DNA of 64,000 bases, from the NCBI RefSeq assembly GCF_027923555.1, contig NZ_AP025523.1, positions 992,001 through 1,056,000 on the forward strand, given 5' to 3'. The stretch's first letter is position 1. Each line of letters starts with the position of its first letter. This document shows positions 5,815-12,200 of the stretch, piece by piece. This stretch comes from Vulcanimicrobium alpinum. GTDB lineage: Bacteria > Vulcanimicrobiota > Vulcanimicrobiia > Vulcanimicrobiales > Vulcanimicrobiaceae. The notes beneath the pieces are model-generated. The model was given only the letters and a program-made list of their open reading frames with translations, searched no databases and had not been told where the DNA came from. The translations under genes were made by a program, and so were the position numbers.

Positions 5815-7620
5815 CTAGCGACGCCTGGTCGCCGTCTTCTTCGTGGGCTTCTTGGCCGCCGCAGGCTTGCGGGCCGGCGCGCTGCGCGCCGGCGCCGACT
5901 TTTTCGCAGCCGCCTTCTTCGCGGTGCTCGTTTCCTTGGCCGCAGGCCGCGCCGACGCCGCTTTCTTGTGCGGGGCGGCTTTCTTGGGCGCCACTTTCTT
6001 CGCGGGCACCGCCTTCTTGGCCGCGGCGCGAACGGGCTTCTTCTTGGCGGCCGCTTTCGTCGCGACGGCTTTCTTCGGGCTCAGCTTCACCGGCTTCGCC
6101 TTGGCGGCGGCTTTCGCGGGCGCAGCTTTTTTCGCGGGTGCGGCCTTCTTCGCGGCCGCCTTGGCGGGGGCCGGTTTGTGCGCTGCGGCCTTCGCCGGCG
6201 GCGCTTTCGCGGCGGCAGGCGTCGCGGCGGCAGGCTTCGCGGCCGCCTTTTTCGCCGGAGCCGCCTGTGCAGCCGGCGCTTTCGCCGCTGCGGCGGGGAC
6301 CTTCACGGCAGGTGCTTTGGGGGGCGCAGCCGCCTTCGCCGGGGTGGCCGCGCCGGGCCCTGGGGCCTCGGTCTTCGCCGGCGCCTGCCGCGGCTTGCGG
6401 GCGGCGGGCGGAGCCGGCGCCGGCGGCTCGGCGGCCGGTGCCGCGGGGGCGGCCGGAACGGGGGGAGCAGCGGGCTCGTCGACGGCCGCGATCGTGTGCG
6501 GCTCTGCGGGCTTCATCGCCGGGCGGGGCTTCCGGACCGGCTTCGGCGCCGGCTCCGCAACGCCGCCGTCCGCGTCGTCGGAGCGCACGGTGGGGACGCG
6601 CGGGCGCTCCGGCGCCTTCGCGGGGGCGGCGGGTTCCGGTTCGGGCTCGCGGACGACGCGCAGCGCGACGCGGCGCAACTGACCGCCGAGCGGGAACACC
6701 AGCTCGTTGATCTCCAGCTCGTCGAGGACGGCCAGGACGATGTCGAATGCGTTGCCTTGATCGCGCGGCGAGTGCGCGTCGGCGCCGACGGCGATTCCCA
6801 CGCCGCGTTCCTTCGCCTTGCGCAGGAAGCGCTTGTTGGCCTCGAGGTAGCGGCGCTTCTCCTCGTCGGAGTGGTCGCGATAGAGAAAGCGGGTGTTGAA
6901 CTCGACGGCCATGCCGCGCTCGCCGGCCGCCGCGAGGACGCGGTCCTCGTACTCGGAGAGCTTTTCGTCGCTGGGCCAGCGGCCGAAGACCGCGGGGACG
7001 AAGAAGTGCCCCACGATCTGTCCCGGGAGCCGTTCGATCGCGTCGACCAGGAGGTTGATATACGTCTCCCAGAGCGTCTCGGTCCCGACCGTCTCGCCGA
7101 TCTCGGCGAACTCCGGGTTGTCGAACGGCCATAGCCAGTTCTCGCCGTGCACCGGATGGGTGACCGGGATGAAGTGCACGGAGCGGATGATCCCGTCCGG
7201 CCGCATCGCGTCGACGATGTTCTGCGCGTCGGGACGCGAGCGCGGGTCGTTGTCGACCTCCGCGCCGATCGAGTAGCGCATCCCGCGCCGCAGGCCCTCG
7301 CTCACGACGGCCGCGTGAGCGACGTCGACGTTCGCCGTCTCAGCGGCGCCGTAGAGATCGCCCGCCTGTGCCAGCTTCAGCGCGCGCCGCACCAGATTCA
7401 CCGCCGCCGGATCCTCGAACGTCAGATAGTTCATGTGATCGGCGACCATGAGGAAGCGCGGATGCCCGCGCCGGCACGCATGGTAGAACCACAGGAACAG
7501 CATCCGTGCCGTCAGCGGGAGGGGACGCTCGTCGAGGTACGGCTTGTGCTCGCCCTTGGCGTGGCCGTGGACATCGGGGATGGCGAAGAGGCGCGGATCG
7601 CGCTCGGTGTTATCGTTCAA
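5815..7620 (-). CDS. PHP-domain phosphoesterase with a long histone-H1-like Lys/Ala/Pro tail
   Basis: A 601-residue two-part protein. Residues 1 to about 325 are a PHP domain with metal-ligand motifs DVHGH (16-20), ADH (60-62), GAEV (119-122), SVHF (147-150), GHF (204-206) and GADAH (279-283), as in histidinol phosphatase, PolC-type and nucleotide phosphoesterases. From about 325 to the end the sequence is proline/alanine-rich and then dense in AKKA and PAKKA blocks, ending KKTATRRR, very like eukaryotic histone H1 and bacterial HU/AlgP-type tails. The catalytic part probably hydrolyses a phosphoester using metal ions; the tail should bind DNA, RNA or polyphosphate. The start overlaps the end of the pyroglutamyl peptidase gene by 11 bases. 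The peptide-binding protein follows at once. Confidence 0.82.
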   Translation of the reverse strand: MNDNTERDPRLFAIPDVHGHAKGEHKPYLDERPLPLTARMLFLWFYHACRRGHPRFLMVADHMNYLTFEDPAAVNLVRRALKLAQAGDLYGAAETANVDVAHAAVVSEGLRRGMRYSIGAEVDNDPRSRPDAQNIVDAMRPDGIIRSVHFIPVTHPVHGENWLWPFDNPEFAEIGETVGTETLWETYINLLVDAIERLPGQIVGHFFVPAVFGRWPSDEKLSEYEDRVLAAAGERGMAVEFNTRFLYRDHSDEEKRRYLEANKRFLRKAKERGVGIAVGADAHSPRDQGNAFDIVLAVLDELEINELVFPLGGQLRRVALRVVREPEPEPAAPAKAPERPRVPTVRSDDADGGVAEPAPKPVRKPRPAMKPAEPHTIAAVDEPAAPPVPAAPAAPAAEPPAPAPPAARKPRQAPAKTEAPGPGAATPAKAAAPPKAPAVKVPAAAAKAPAAQAAPAKKAAAKPAAATPAAAKAPPAKAAAHKPAPAKAAAKKAAPAKKAAPAKAAAKAKPVKLSPKKAVATKAAAKKKPVRAAAKKAVPAKKVAPKKAAPHKKAASARPAAKETSTAKKAAAKKSAPARSAPARKPAAAKKPTKKTATRRR

Positions 7621-8311
7621 CTTCTCGTAGTCCGCGGGGGATCCACATCTGACCGGCTGCGCGCTGCTGCACCGTCGCCGGCAGGCTCTCGAGCCACCCG
7701 GCGACCGTCTCGATCAAGGTTTCGACACCTCTGCGCATTAGATCGAGCGCCATCGAGGGGGTGCGTTCGGCACCGAGTTCGGCCGCCTGCGCGGGGAGGG
7801 CGGGGAGGTGAAGAAACCCGGCCGGGATCGGGGGTGACGCGTTCGCGGTGATCGCGAGCGCTTCGTAGAGCCATTGGTTGCACAGGTACGTCCCGGCGGT
7901 GTTGGAGACGTAGCCGGGGATGCCGAGGGCGCGCCACGCGTCGACGATCTCGCCGAGCGGGAGCGTCGCGAGCCGCGCGTCGGGTCCGCCGCGCTGCACC
8001 GGATCGTTCTTGCGCATCGTCCCGACGGCGTCCGGGAGCTCGAAATCGAGGACGTTGAGCGCGGCGCGCTCGAGCGCGAGCGAGATGCGCCCGGGTGCGA
8101 AGCCCGTCCCGATCGCGAACTCGTACGGCTGCTGGCGCAATGCCGCCTCGAGATGATTCCGAAGCGTGCGGGTCTCGACGGGAAGTACGCGGACGTCGAC
8201 GACTCGACCGGCGATGACGCGGCCTTCCAGGCTGCGCACGAGGAGCTCGCTCGGATTCATGGGATGAGGACCGAACGGCGCAAAACCGGTCAGCAGAACG
8301 TGCCGCGACAC
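7610..8311 (-). CDS. pcp: Pyroglutamyl-peptidase I (peptidase C15)
   Basis: A 233-residue cysteine peptidase that removes N-terminal pyroglutamate from peptides. Starting at the GTG at 8311, the catalytic residues fall at Glu81 (LERAALN), Cys144 (SNTAGTYLCNQWLY) and His168 (GFLHLP), the same numbers as in well-studied bacterial Pcp enzymes, which supports this start. An upstream ATG at 8410 would add 33 arginine/alanine-rich residues that run into the terminator hairpin, so I reject it. The N-terminal LLTGFAPFG is typical. No clear ribosome-binding site was seen. The next gene (PHP) overlaps its end by 11 bases, so both are probably in one transcript that also makes the peptide-binding lipoprotein. 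Confidence 0.87.
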   Translation of the reverse strand: MSRHVLLTGFAPFGPHPMNPSELLVRSLEGRVIAGRVVDVRVLPVETRTLRNHLEAALRQQPYEFAIGTGFAPGRISLALERAALNVLDFELPDAVGTMRKNDPVQRGGPDARLATLPLGEIVDAWRALGIPGYVSNTAGTYLCNQWLYEALAITANASPPIPAGFLHLPALPAQAAELGAERTPSMALDLMRRGVETLIETVAGWLESLPATVQQRAAGQMWIPRGLREVER

Positions 8312-8377
8312 GAACCGCCGATTTTCGGCGAGTCGCCTGCGGAACCTGCGCGCGGCCGGCTGGTCTGCACGATCGGG

Positions 8378-8404
8378 AAAAAAAGCCGCCCTCGCGGGGG
8401 CGGC
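8378..8404 (-). terminator. Intrinsic terminator ending the ECF sigma/MGMT transcript
   Basis: Read on the minus strand, a 7-bp GC stem (8385-8391 paired with 8398-8404, six-base loop) is followed at once by seven T residues (8378-8384). This is a textbook factor-independent terminator. It lies between the sigma/methyltransferase pair and the pcp start at 8311. Confidence 0.8.
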
Positions 8405-8434
8405 GGACAAGGTTCTTGGTTCGCGGAGACCGGG

Positions 8435-8500
8435 CTAGGCCCGGAAACCTCCGATCATCGTGAGACATTGATTGGAACTGTCGCTAGTAACGATGACCAC
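8435..8500 (-). CDS. Possible very small peptide gene between the MGMT gene and its terminator
   Basis: On the minus strand an unusually strong AGAGGAGG site precedes a short frame beginning GTG at 8500 and ending TAG at 8435. It would give about 21 residues (VVIVTSDSSNQCLTMIGGFR plus Ala) and sits just before the terminator at 8378-8404. The weakness is that the Shine-Dalgarno bases overlap the GTG; good spacing would need a start at a GTC or ATC codon. It may be a real peptide, a leader, or part of an untranslated RNA. No known peptide family was recognised. Confidence 0.3.
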   Translation of the reverse strand: MVIVTSDSSNQCLTMIGGFRA

Positions 8501-8614
8501 CTCCTCTTGTCCGCCTGTTATCCTTCGTTGATCTGTAGTCTGAAGGGGCCGCGGACGTATCGTGGGGACCGTGTTCCCGCGCTTGGGCGAGACAATCCTG
8601 CCGGGTCGCGGCGT

Positions 8615-9349
8615 TCAGCGGCGGGCCGTGCGGTAGCCTTCGAGTTCGAGGATGCGCGCCTTCACGTCGACGCCGTACGCGTACTGATGCAGCGCGCCGT
8701 TCGAGTCGACGACCCGGTGGCACGGATAGAGCAGCGCAACCGGATTGCGCGCCATCGCGCGGCCGACGGCACGCGCGGCGTTGGGCTGGCCGATCGTCTC
8801 GGCGATCCAGCCGTAGGAACGCACTTCGCCGGGCGGGATCGTCGCGGCGGCGCGCAGCGCGGACTGTTCGAACGGCGTGAGATCGCTGATGTCGACCCGC
8901 GCCAGATCTGGCTTGTGCGTGCGGAAGAACGCGTTCACCGTGTCGGTGACCCACTGCGGCGCCTGCGAGGGGATCAGTCCTCGGCCGAGCCGGCGCTGGA
9001 GCTTGGTGAGCACCGCTTCATCGCCTTCACCGCGATCGAGCGCGACGGCGGTGATCCCGCTGTGACGGAACGCGACCCAAAGTTTGCCGACCGGGGAATC
9101 GATCGTCGCGACCGAGTCGGGGACGGTGATCTTCACCGTCGTCTGGATGTGCTCGAGGATCTTCGGAAAGAGGCTCTGCGGCGGTTCGACCGGCGGGAGA
9201 CACGTCAGGCAGTACGCGATCCCTTCGTTCTCACGGTAGATCTCCTGGCATTCCGGGCACGCGCGCAGATGCGCCAGCACGTGCTCGCGGCGCGGCTCCA
9301 CGCCATCGCGCATCTCGTCCCACAGACGTTCGACGTCGCAGCAGCGCAT
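8615..9349 (-). CDS. Anti-sigma-type zinc finger fused to O6-alkylguanine-DNA methyltransferase
   Basis: A 244-residue fusion. Residues 1 to about 60 resemble the anti-sigma zinc finger (ZAS/zf-HC2): MRCCDVERLWDEMRDG followed by the H-X3-C-X2-C motif His27, Cys31, Cys34. Residues about 75-244 are a methylated-DNA methyltransferase: a ribonuclease-like N-lobe, then ARAVGRAMARNP with the arginine finger, and the alkyl-acceptor motif PCHRV with Cys210. Such enzymes move alkyl groups from O6-guanine irreversibly to that cysteine. The start at 9349 has GAGGAG 9 bases upstream; a GTG at 9358 would overlap the sigma stop as GTGA. It directly follows an ECF sigma gene, the normal place for an anti-sigma factor. 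The loop after the active site (ALHQYAYGVDVK) departs from the usual Gly-Gly-Tyr pattern. Confidence 0.85.
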   Translation of the reverse strand: MRCCDVERLWDEMRDGVEPRREHVLAHLRACPECQEIYRENEGIAYCLTCLPPVEPPQSLFPKILEHIQTTVKITVPDSVATIDSPVGKLWVAFRHSGITAVALDRGEGDEAVLTKLQRRLGRGLIPSQAPQWVTDTVNAFFRTHKPDLARVDISDLTPFEQSALRAAATIPPGEVRSYGWIAETIGQPNAARAVGRAMARNPVALLYPCHRVVDSNGALHQYAYGVDVKARILELEGYRTARR

Positions 9350-9354
9350 AGGGG

Positions 9355-10002
9355 TCACTCCTCTTCCTCGGTGGCGGGATGGTCGCTCGGAACGATCCGT
9401 CCGACTTGGGGCCCCAGGATCCGGCGAAGGATGCGCACGGCGCGATGGACGTGCGATTTCACCGTGCCGATCGGCTGATTCAGAATCTCGGCGATCTCGG
9501 GGTGGCTCCGGCCCTCGATGAAACGGAGCGTTGCGGCGGCGCGCAGATGCATGGGCAGCTGCAGCAGCGCCTGCTCCACCAACACCATGTCGGCGGCGCG
9601 GTCGACGATCTGTTCGGGCTGGTCGGGGCCTTCTTGGGTTTCGTTGAGGAGTGCGTCCGGGTCGGCCAGCGCGTCGAGCGCCACGTTGGTCGGGCGTTTC
9701 GAACGGAGCCGGTTGCGCGTGACGTTGAGCGTGATCGTATAGAGCCAGGGCTGCAGGCGCAGCTCGGCCCGTTGCTGGGGATCCATCTTTGCGAGCGCCC
9801 GGTAGGCGCGCACGAAAGCGTCCTGAACGATCTCCTCGGCGTCCTCGCGATTCCCGGTCATGCGGAGCGCGAAGCCGTAGAGCCGACGCTGGTAGTCGTC
9901 GACGATCGACTCGAATGTTTCGGGTCCCGGAACGGACGGGGCCGCCGTCGCCGGTGCGGTCAAGCGGTAATGGTCTCCGATGATCGGTGCGAGCGCACTC
10001 AT
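9355..10002 (-). CDS. ECF (sigma-70 family) RNA polymerase sigma factor
   Basis: A 215-residue sigma factor. Region 2 starts near residue 30 (FESIVDDYQRRLYGFALRMT and DAEEIVQDAFVRAY), and region 4 near the end holds the -35-binding helix-turn-helix (SHPEIAEILNQPIGTVKSHV, then HRAVRILRR). Regions 1 and 3 are absent, as in ECF sigmas. The start at 10002 is preceded by AGGA; an upstream ATG at 10056 with GAGGGG ahead would add 18 residues and cannot be excluded. The acidic tail TEEEE ends a few bases before the zinc-finger/methyltransferase gene, so the two are translationally coupled. By analogy with other ECF/ZAS pairs that partner should hold this sigma inactive until a signal arrives. Confidence 0.9.
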   Translation of the reverse strand: MSALAPIIGDHYRLTAPATAAPSVPGPETFESIVDDYQRRLYGFALRMTGNREDAEEIVQDAFVRAYRALAKMDPQQRAELRLQPWLYTITLNVTRNRLRSKRPTNVALDALADPDALLNETQEGPDQPEQIVDRAADMVLVEQALLQLPMHLRAAATLRFIEGRSHPEIAEILNQPIGTVKSHVHRAVRILRRILGPQVGRIVPSDHPATEEEE

Positions 10003-10062
10003 CAGGGTCCTAGACCGGAGCCGCGGGAGTGCCGGTTGCGCCCTTTCCGTACCCATACACAG

Positions 10063-10077
10063 CGCCCCTCGGGGGCG
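10063..10077 (-). terminator. Weak hairpin downstream of the 10.1-10.85 kb gene
   Basis: A 6-bp GC stem (CGCCCC, 10063-10068, with GGGGCG, 10072-10077) and a TCG loop lies just past the stop at 10085. It has no T-run, so it may be a weak or factor-assisted terminator, or simply part of the leader of the sigma gene. The rest of the 82-bp gap (10003-10084) must hold the sigma promoter; no certain -35/-10 pair was recognised. Confidence 0.3.
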
Positions 10078-10084
10078 GCGTGCG

Positions 10085-10852
10085 TCACGTTCGCCGCGGC
10101 TGCGGCGTGCGCGCCTGCTGGGAGGGGATCGCGCGGATCGACCGCACGTACGTGATCGCGACCGGCGCGCGCCGGGAGACGTCGTCGATATTGCCGTCGA
10201 TCCCGAGTTTTGCGTCGAGCGCGACCAGCAGGGCGGTGTCGTACGAATAGTACGCCGTCCCGGTCATCGTGATCGTGCCGGCCAGCGCCATCGCGGGGCG
10301 ATCCGGGAGAGCGCCATGCAACGGCCCCCTTGCTTCAAACGCGATTCCCATCGATTTCACGCCGGAAACCGTGGCGTCAGCGAGCCGGCGCAGCGTCCCG
10401 CGCAGCGGCGCGCCGGTCATCGGCGACGGGAAATCGAACGGGACGGCGCGCTTGATTTTATGCAGATCGCGCATCGTCGGGCGGTCGAGCTGGACCGCGA
10501 ACGGCTGGTTGAGGACGGTTAAATAATCCGGATCGTGCGAGGAGCCGTCGCGCATCTCGCCCGAAGGGAGCAGCGTGGATGTGAACGTCGCGGTCTGGTG
10601 CAGCTTTGCGCCGTCACCATCGCGATCGTATTCCACGCGCGCGACGTACGTCGTTCCGGCCGACGTGCGCACGATCGAGAGCGTCTCGGTCCCTTGGTAG
10701 ACCGTCCGGCTGTGCACGTCTCCGTTGCCGACGCGGAACGTGTCGCTGCCGCTGACCGTATACGGCTCGTCCGCCATCGCGATTGCGCCGGTTGCAGCGG
10801 CGACTGCGAAGAATGCGAACGAGCCGGCGATCAGAGCGCGGCGGATGGTCAT
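10085..10852 (-). CDS. Secreted protein of unknown function
   Basis: A 255-residue protein with a clear signal peptide (MTIRRALIAGSFAFFAVAAA, cleavage near AMADEP). The mature part is rich in Thr, Ser and beta-type residues, for example ETLSIVRTSAGTTYVARVEYDRDG and LAGTITMTGTAYYSYD, and looks like a beta-rich exported domain without catalytic motifs. The start has GAGGA 6 bases upstream. It diverges from the GH125 mannosidase gene with only 43 bp between the start codons, so the two share a promoter region. I recognise no family. Confidence 0.7.
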   Translation of the reverse strand: MTIRRALIAGSFAFFAVAAATGAIAMADEPYTVSGSDTFRVGNGDVHSRTVYQGTETLSIVRTSAGTTYVARVEYDRDGDGAKLHQTATFTSTLLPSGEMRDGSSHDPDYLTVLNQPFAVQLDRPTMRDLHKIKRAVPFDFPSPMTGAPLRGTLRRLADATVSGVKSMGIAFEARGPLHGALPDRPAMALAGTITMTGTAYYSYDTALLVALDAKLGIDGNIDDVSRRAPVAITYVRSIRAIPSQQARTPQPRRT

Positions 10853-10895
10853 CGGGGTCCTCGGAGAAGTGGCGTGCGTTATACGTTCCCGTCTT

Positions 10896-12200
10896 ATGGT
10901 ACTACGGAAACGTGCCGATACGGATGATGGGTTGCTGATTCGAAACCTGGGCCGTTTCCTCGCACTCGTCATCGCGTTCGGCATCGCCGCCGCGGCGGTC
11001 CCGGTGCGCGCCGCCGAGGGGCTCACGATGAGCCCGGCCCTCAACGCGAAGCTCGACCGGCTATATCTGACCGCCTACGACGAGACGATTCAGCGGCACG
11101 CCCTGGCCCAGCGCGACGGAACGACCTACGTGTCGACCGGCGATATCGAGGCCGAATGGCTGCGCGACGCGAGCGCGACGGTGCGGCCGTACATCGGCCT
11201 CTCGCAGCATGACGGCGACGTCCAGTCGAAGCTGCGCGGTGTCGTCGCGCGCCAGGCTAAGTACATCCTCAAGGATCCCTACGCCAACGCGTTCTCGCGC
11301 AGCTACCGCGTGGTGGAGCGCAAGTTCGAAGTCGATTCGCTGCTCTATCCGATCTGGTTCGCGTACGACTACTACCGGCAAACCGGCGACCGGCGCATCT
11401 TCACCCCCGAGGTGCGCAAGGCGTTCAACCGCGTGCTTTCGACGATGCGCAGCGAGCAGCACCATCAGCAGCGCTCGCGCTACGTCCATCCGCAGCTCGC
11501 CAACGGCGGCCGCGGGAGCAGCGTCCGCTACACCGGGATGGTGTGGACCGGCTTCCGTCCCTCCGACGATCCCGTGCGCTATCACTACAACATCCCGGTC
11601 AACATGTTCGCAGCGGTCGTGATGAAAGACCTCACCACGATCGCTCGCGACGTCTGGCACGACGGGCGGATGGCCTCGAACGCCTGGGGCCTCTCGGTGC
11701 AGATCCAGCGCGGGATCGAGCAGTACGGAACGCTCCAGCTCAAGCCGTTCGGACGCATCTACGCCTATGAAGTCGATGGCCTCGGTCACGCTAACGTGAT
11801 GGACGACGCCAACATCCCCTCACTGCTCTCGATCCCGTACTTCGGATACCTGCCGAAAGACAACTCGCTCTATCTCGCCACGCGCCGGTTCGTGCTCTCG
11901 GATCGCAATCCGTATTTTTTTCGCGGGAAGTACGCGGAAGGCGTGGGCAGCCCGCACACGCCGCACGGCTACGTGTGGCCGCTCGCGCTGTGCGTGCAGG
12001 CGCTCACGTCGAGCGACGAACGTGAAGTGAGCCGGGTCTTCGGCTGGATCGCCGTGTCCGACATCGGCGACCACCGTCTGCACGAGTCGTTCAACGCGAA
12101 TTGGCCGGAGACGTACACCCGCGAAGACTTTGCGTGGCCCAACGCCCTCTACGCCGAACTCGTGCTCACGCGCCGCGGCGAACTCTACGCCGAACGCTGA
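10896..12200 (+). CDS. GH125 exo-alpha-1,6-mannosidase, exported
   Basis: A 434-residue glycoside hydrolase. The segment TGDIEAEWLRDASA (residues 81-94), the later GLGHANVMDDANIPSLLSIP, GSPHTPHGYVWPL and the terminal FNANWPETYTREDFAWPNAL match the family GH125 layout, whose characterised members remove alpha-1,6-linked mannose with inversion. An N-terminal hydrophobic stretch (FLALVIAFGIAAAAVPVRAA) shows export. From the ATG at 10896 the n-region is long; a TTG at 10932 would give a more ordinary signal peptide, so the start is uncertain by 12 codons. No other glycan gene is adjacent. It converges on the membrane protein gene at 12213. Confidence 0.85.
   Translation: MVLRKRADTDDGLLIRNLGRFLALVIAFGIAAAAVPVRAAEGLTMSPALNAKLDRLYLTAYDETIQRHALAQRDGTTYVSTGDIEAEWLRDASATVRPYIGLSQHDGDVQSKLRGVVARQAKYILKDPYANAFSRSYRVVERKFEVDSLLYPIWFAYDYYRQTGDRRIFTPEVRKAFNRVLSTMRSEQHHQQRSRYVHPQLANGGRGSSVRYTGMVWTGFRPSDDPVRYHYNIPVNMFAAVVMKDLTTIARDVWHDGRMASNAWGLSVQIQRGIEQYGTLQLKPFGRIYAYEVDGLGHANVMDDANIPSLLSIPYFGYLPKDNSLYLATRRFVLSDRNPYFFRGKYAEGVGSPHTPHGYVWPLALCVQALTSSDEREVSRVFGWIAVSDIGDHRLHESFNANWPETYTREDFAWPNALYAELVLTRRGELYAER

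Follow-up and report, generated by a model that had tools for sequence, protein, structure and literature searches.

The soil bacterium Vulcanimicrobium alpinum carries a two-gene operon that pairs an ECF sigma factor with a single protein joining a zinc-binding anti-sigma domain to an O6-alkylguanine-DNA methyltransferase (Ogt). Both cysteine sites of this fusion, the zinc site and the alkyl-acceptor cysteine, are invariant among its orthologs, and the sigma factor has a conserved autopromoter and a recurring set of predicted targets. On balance we believe that the operon probably works as an autoregulated switch for alkylation or electrophile stress, in which the anti-sigma factor is also a repair enzyme. 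For this switch we infer sigma binding, the signal, the sensing cysteine, release and feedback. The operon lies on the reverse strand of the window, by which we mean the whole stretch of 64,000 nucleotides analysed here (G+C 68.40%), in a genome assembled as one contig of 3,508,363 bases.

The operon and its anti-sigma-methyltransferase fusion

The sigma gene (9355..10002, (-) strand) encodes a protein of 215 residues beginning MSALAPII, with regions 2 and 4 recognised by Pfam (Sigma70_r2, 4.3e-17; r4_2, 7.1e-14). We favoured the start at 10002, which had also been chosen in the initial annotation of this DNA, over the longer ORF start at 10056, because the MSALAP sequence is kept in relatives and the start codon lies 10 nt after a conserved promoter. 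The gene for the fusion (8615..9358, (-) strand) is directly downstream, its ORF overlapping that of the sigma factor by 4 nt, and encodes 247 residues from a GTG start codon. The initial annotation had counted from an internal ATG; the residues that it named as His27, Cys31, Cys34 and Cys210 are real, but from the GTG they become His30, Cys34, Cys37 and Cys213. A hairpin resembling an intrinsic terminator, with a T-run, follows the two genes (8385..8404, (-) strand), and in the interval up to a gene for pyroglutamyl peptidase (8385-8540, (-) strand) one can read a possible short leader ORF (VVIVTSDSSNQCLTMIGGFRA) with a strong terminator-like hairpin after it. A search of positions 7600-11100 against Rfam gave no match. 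Further along, positions 5815-7620 (-) encode a protein resembling PHP/histidinol phosphatases, whose long C-terminal tail is rich in Ala, Pro and Lys and similar to histone H1.

The fusion of a ZAS-type zinc finger to a methyltransferase after an ECF sigma factor, as first described from the sequence of this operon, was confirmed by 86 one-piece orthologs (27 in a first set and 59 in a second), found throughout the order. The fusion gene is directly adjoined by the sigma gene in 27/27 loci of the first set and 57/59 of the second, the remaining two being contig-edge cases. In two families of the order, practically all genomes of sufficient completeness carry the fusion together with its adjoining sigma factor; matches came from 94 genomes, and each of the nine listed family members lacking one is less than 90% complete. 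A frameshift joining two separate proteins had been named as one finding that would undo the idea, and none was found. That the fusion is an accident or an annotation artefact with no regulatory meaning has in our judgement a practically negligible chance: the zf-HC2 score of the single sequence is indeed under the Pfam cut-off, but the 86 orthologs, the invariant ligands and the adjacency to the sigma gene speak against this explanation, and their conservation already refutes an artefact.

The N-terminal domain (residues 4-78; 9125..9349, (-) strand) is supported by its ligands, profile matches and an AlphaFold2 model, its fourth helix spanning residues 63-74. Its zinc ligands are Cys6 (9341-9343), His30 (9269-9271), Cys34 (9257-9259) and Cys37 (9248-9250), all on the (-) strand and all invariant in 86/86 orthologs; the last three had been correctly recognised at the outset and Cys6 had been missed. 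For the single fusion sequence both zf-HC2 and Methyltransf_1N fall below the Pfam cut-offs, and zf-HC2 was matched in 12 of the 27 first-set orthologs, at best with 3.3e-5. Searched against all PDB chains, a profile of the anti-sigma domain (ASD) matched RsiW (5wuq, 9e-5) and RslA (3hug, 0.01), with no other credible match. When 199 genomes from a different phylum were searched blindly with this profile, the top 20 loci were zinc proteins, 15 of them encoded directly beside an ECF sigma factor; none of the 20 carries Ogt, so that no ZAS-Ogt fusion was found among them. AlphaFold2 predicted the expected four helices (pLDDT 79), and Foldseek gave a single, weak match for this model, to the anti-sigma factor RseA (E 6.6). 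The RsiW and RslA profile matches and the invariant zinc site bear out the anti-sigma assignment made in the initial annotation: judged by sequence, the domain is a genuine anti-sigma domain, which would bind the adjacent sigma factor. RsiW and RslA are domains of anti-sigma factors bound to the membrane, whereas no membrane segment is predicted for the fusion. A second cysteine pair, C50xxC53 (AYCLTCLP; 9194..9211, (-) strand), sits where ASD helix 3 ends; both residues are kept in 68/86 orthologs and they are mostly lost together. This pair could act as a redox switch.

The Ogt/MGMT domain (residues 84-243; 8630..9109, (-) strand) was matched by PF01035 (DNA_binding_1) with 6.5e-30, and its predicted model, with pLDDT above 90 across most of the domain, matched M. 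tuberculosis Ogt (3.8e-13) and the C-terminal domain of E. coli Ada (2.7e-11) in Foldseek. Two of the 86 orthologs are cut by contig ends before the acceptor cysteine, which leaves a denominator of 84. The acceptor Cys213 (8720-8722) is present in 84/84, and His214, Arg215, Val216, Asn205, Tyr182 and Glu240 are likewise invariant, with Arg196 kept in 83/84; these residues make up the PCHRV motif, the Asn hinge, the Arg finger and the Tyr and Glu positions. The domain thus looks complete with all catalytic residues kept, and is predicted to carry out alkyl transfer. The loop after the active site had been taken initially as a possible mark of sensing, an idea that we dropped. At the position of human Gly160 the fusion has Tyr in 82/84 orthologs, and an ordinary Ada encoded in this genome has an equally bulky Trp there (YRWG). 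Ada is an active repair enzyme, and the loop therefore does not speak against repair.

A wider family of ECF sigma factors paired with Ogt

The link between an ECF sigma factor and Ogt proved to extend far beyond this order. A search of a plasmid collection led to an Ogt of Nonomuraea, 38-42% identical to the fusions of this order, whose start is overlapped by an ECF sigma gene and which carries a C-terminal Ada_Zn domain (Pfam Ada_Zn_binding, 2.5e-10); the plasmid genes of Nonomuraea and Arthrobacter were called from ORFs. A scan of a genome collection gave at least 589 relatives. Among the best 80 of these, from other phyla, 77/80 have an ECF sigma factor immediately upstream, and an Ada-type zinc motif is likewise found in 77/80; they belong to Actinomycetota, Chloroflexota, Rubrobacter and others. 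These related pairs have no ZAS domain, keep Ogt and mostly carry an Ada-type zinc domain, which in Ada senses methyl phosphotriesters. The breadth of the pairing strengthens the idea that Ogt takes part in signalling. In several relatives, congeners among them, the ZAS-Ogt operon is accompanied by a second system, a paralogous ECF-Ogt-AdaZn operon (loci L267-L272, L280 and L281).

In a tree of sigma factors the ZAS-Ogt sigmas form one clade (support 100/100) nested within an ECF-Ogt clade (100/99), and the sigma factor studied here is separate from its genome's 12 further alignable ECF sigmas. The Ogt tree likewise places the ZAS-Ogts beside the AdaZn-Ogts, with weaker support for the join (87/58). 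The sigma factor is thus a member of a large ECF clade paired with Ogt and a C-terminal Ada-type zinc domain, a relationship newly found here, and the ZAS-Ogt pair shares ancestry with the ECF-Ogt-AdaZn pairs. In the N-termini of the AdaZn proteins, hhalign picked out a stretch similar to the fourth anti-sigma helix (probability 34%, P 4e-4, against 0.27 for the reversed control), which no more than suggests that this part of the domain was retained.

The initial annotation knew of no described example of such a system, a statement that needs qualifying. ECF122, an ECF group with conserved 6-O-methylguanine methyltransferase neighbours, is already catalogued, with its mechanism given as unknown (Casas-Pastor et al. 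2021 as cited in PMC8999054). The hallmark of the group, an ECF sigma factor with an adjacent 6-O-methylguanine-DNA methyltransferase, is present here as far as the group is characterised by its description in PMC8999054. Matched by that description, the ECF-Ogt-AdaZn pairs of Actinomycetota and Chloroflexota are probably ECF122, and the sigma factor studied here nests among these putative ECF122 pairs. ECF122 is listed there among sigma factors with no known anti-sigma; in the present system the partner differs in having a zinc anti-sigma domain at its N-terminus and in lacking the Ada zinc domain. Among the papers covered by the search, none combined an ECF sigma factor, Ogt and alkylation.

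Autopromoter and predicted targets

An ECF promoter motif upstream of 10002 had been proposed as a check on the system, and such a motif was found. The ECF-type autopromoter GCAACC-N16-CGGTC (10013..10039, (-) strand) ends 10 nt before the sigma start codon and is thus near-leaderless. Within the genus it reads GCAACC-N16-CGGTY, whereas other genera have GAAACC-N15/16, and about 8-15 nt separate its end from the start codon. The first set has it at 24/26 loci, where 0.13 would be expected from the remaining sequence of those loci, and the second set has it at 52/57. In the AdaZn family an autopromoter was found at 30/47 loci (0.39 expected), taking the form GCAACC-N16-TGTT, which in Nonomuraea and Actinomadura again leaves about 8-9 nt to the start. 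The ZAS and AdaZn forms have the near-leaderless consensus GMAACC-N16-YGKTY in common, which supports autoregulation by related sigma factors in both architectures.

Across 11 congeneric genomes the near-leaderless motif gave 88 sites and its reversed pattern 14; some double-counted sites and coding matches are included in each number. The motif precedes a gene for a DUF1858-domain protein in 10/10 genomes having that gene, with AGGTC as the -10 element in this genome; the protein is small and has a conserved HLGGCSHC motif (loci L150-L159). In six genomes it precedes clpB (loci L131, L135, L116, L406, L407 and L408), and a CIRCE-like operator (TTAGCACTC-N9-GAGTG) overlaps the ECF-like promoter there, which suggests that HrcA and the sigma factor may control clpB jointly. 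Other recurring positions are before genes for an MDR oxidoreductase (five genomes), a quinone oxidoreductase (four), HtrA (two) and a LysE exporter (two), and in three Nonomuraea the motif lies before an SDR oxidoreductase gene. The predicted regulon, with clpB, quinone and alcohol oxidoreductases, HtrA and the DUF1858 protein, looks like one for electrophile stress and proteostasis. The genome-wide promoter search proposed with the initial annotation yielded recurring targets within the genus, and these are not specific to alkyl-DNA repair.

Several candidate targets were rejected. An alkylation-repair regulon acting through tag has its match in this genome only, being absent from readable relatives bar one unrelated weak match (L087). 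A family-wide regulon with GAAACC was also dropped: beyond the genus the autopromoter alone is conspicuous, and hits are as numerous in families that lack the system. Matches at methionine aminopeptidase genes were discarded as lying inside coding sequence, and TsaD and others were single-genome matches only.

Proposed mechanism and alternatives

In the mechanism that we propose, the ECF sigma factor would transcribe its own operon from the near-leaderless promoter, and its co-translated partner, predicted to be at the same time a repair alkyltransferase, would hold it inactive through the N-terminal zinc domain. Alkylating or electrophilic chemicals would modify the partner, either because Cys213 takes an alkyl group from O6-alkylguanine or because the zinc thiolates react directly, or both, and the modified partner would release the sigma factor. 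Freed sigma factor would then make more of itself, more repair protein, and the electrophile and proteostasis genes (quinone/alcohol oxidoreductases, ClpB, HtrA and the DUF1858 protein). Once the damage is over, fresh unmodified partner would re-capture the sigma factor, so that the repair enzyme's own supply would report damage. The stricter version, an irreversible single-use sensor in which alkyl transfer to Cys213 releases the sigma factor and each repair event counts as one unit of signal, is tentative, and we hold it at somewhat under an even chance.

What the switch responds to, and through which cysteines, is where the alternatives lie. The zinc anti-sigma domains of RsrA, RshA and ChrR sense thiol-reactive stress, and there is an appreciable minority chance that here too the ZAS domain alone senses such stress, with Ogt fused to it for autoregulated induction and alkylation of Cys213 having no effect on the sigma factor. 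The predicted regulon resembles thiol and electrophile regulons in its oxidoreductases, ClpB and protease; since it has no conserved alkyl-DNA-repair genes, tag being a target in this genome only, electrophile or thiol stress may be the true signal. The extra cysteine pair C50/C53 points the same way, and according to PMC8999054 the ZAS domains of soluble anti-sigma factors usually answer oxidative stress. Against this, the ECF-Ogt pairing is wider than ZAS, which makes Ogt, not ZAS, the constant part. Across phyla the sigma factor, Ogt and the autopromoter stay constant and the zinc-thiolate module varies, with Ada_Zn at one end and ZAS at the other, and this speaks for Ogt taking part in signalling and for alkylation or electrophiles as the signal.

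The same constancy of Ogt as the partner of this sigma clade would fit the model of the initial annotation, in which the sigma factor is freed solely by Cys213 becoming alkylated or by damaged DNA capturing the Ogt domain. Human AGT is destabilised on methylation, and Cys213 and the catalytic residues are invariant in 84 orthologs; selection for repair explains that invariance equally, however, and the regulon is not repair-specific, and we give this model a slightly smaller minority chance than the thiol sensor. It is very unlikely that the alkylated fusion, instead of inhibiting the sigma factor, helps it at promoters as a co-activator. Ada turns activator once methylated (PMC4437013), and the related ECF122 is listed with no known anti-sigma in PMC8999054, but the fusion contains a genuine anti-sigma domain. 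We return to the autoregulated switch, with one or both cysteine sites as its sensor, as the reading on which the following comparison is based.

The switch would resemble SigR-RsrA, SigH-RshA and RpoE-ChrR in its ZAS site (C..HxxxCxxC), in co-transcription with an ECF sigma factor, in autoregulation, and in its stress, proteostasis and oxidoreductase targets. It differs in the C-terminal module, which is absent from RsrA and a cupin in ChrR, and is here a DNA-repair alkyltransferase. If the single-use sensor at Cys213 is real, then together with the ECF-Ogt-AdaZn pairs it would constitute a second widespread adaptive response to alkylation, acting by sigma release and not by an activator of the Ada type, through which the classical adaptive response runs. 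The implied anti-sigma-release logic, unrelated to Ada, would belong to an order whose phylum has been little studied, and Actinomycetota and Chloroflexota have related pairs. This logic would account for the function of ECF-methyltransferase pairs such as ECF122, and would tie the stoichiometry of DNA repair to gene control. As the source organism is in culture, the system is directly testable. Like the fusion, E. coli Ada has the Ogt fold and is a regulator with a suicidal methyl acceptor that raises its own synthesis; unlike the fusion, in which control would pass through the sigma factor, Ada is itself the DNA-binding activator. Ada regulators combine Ada_Zn, an AraC-type HTH and Ogt in one protein, and neither Ada_Zn nor HTH was found in the fusion. 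A classical Ada with all three parts is encoded in the same genome at position 3503410 (L001), so that repair by the Ogt domain of the fusion would be partly redundant.
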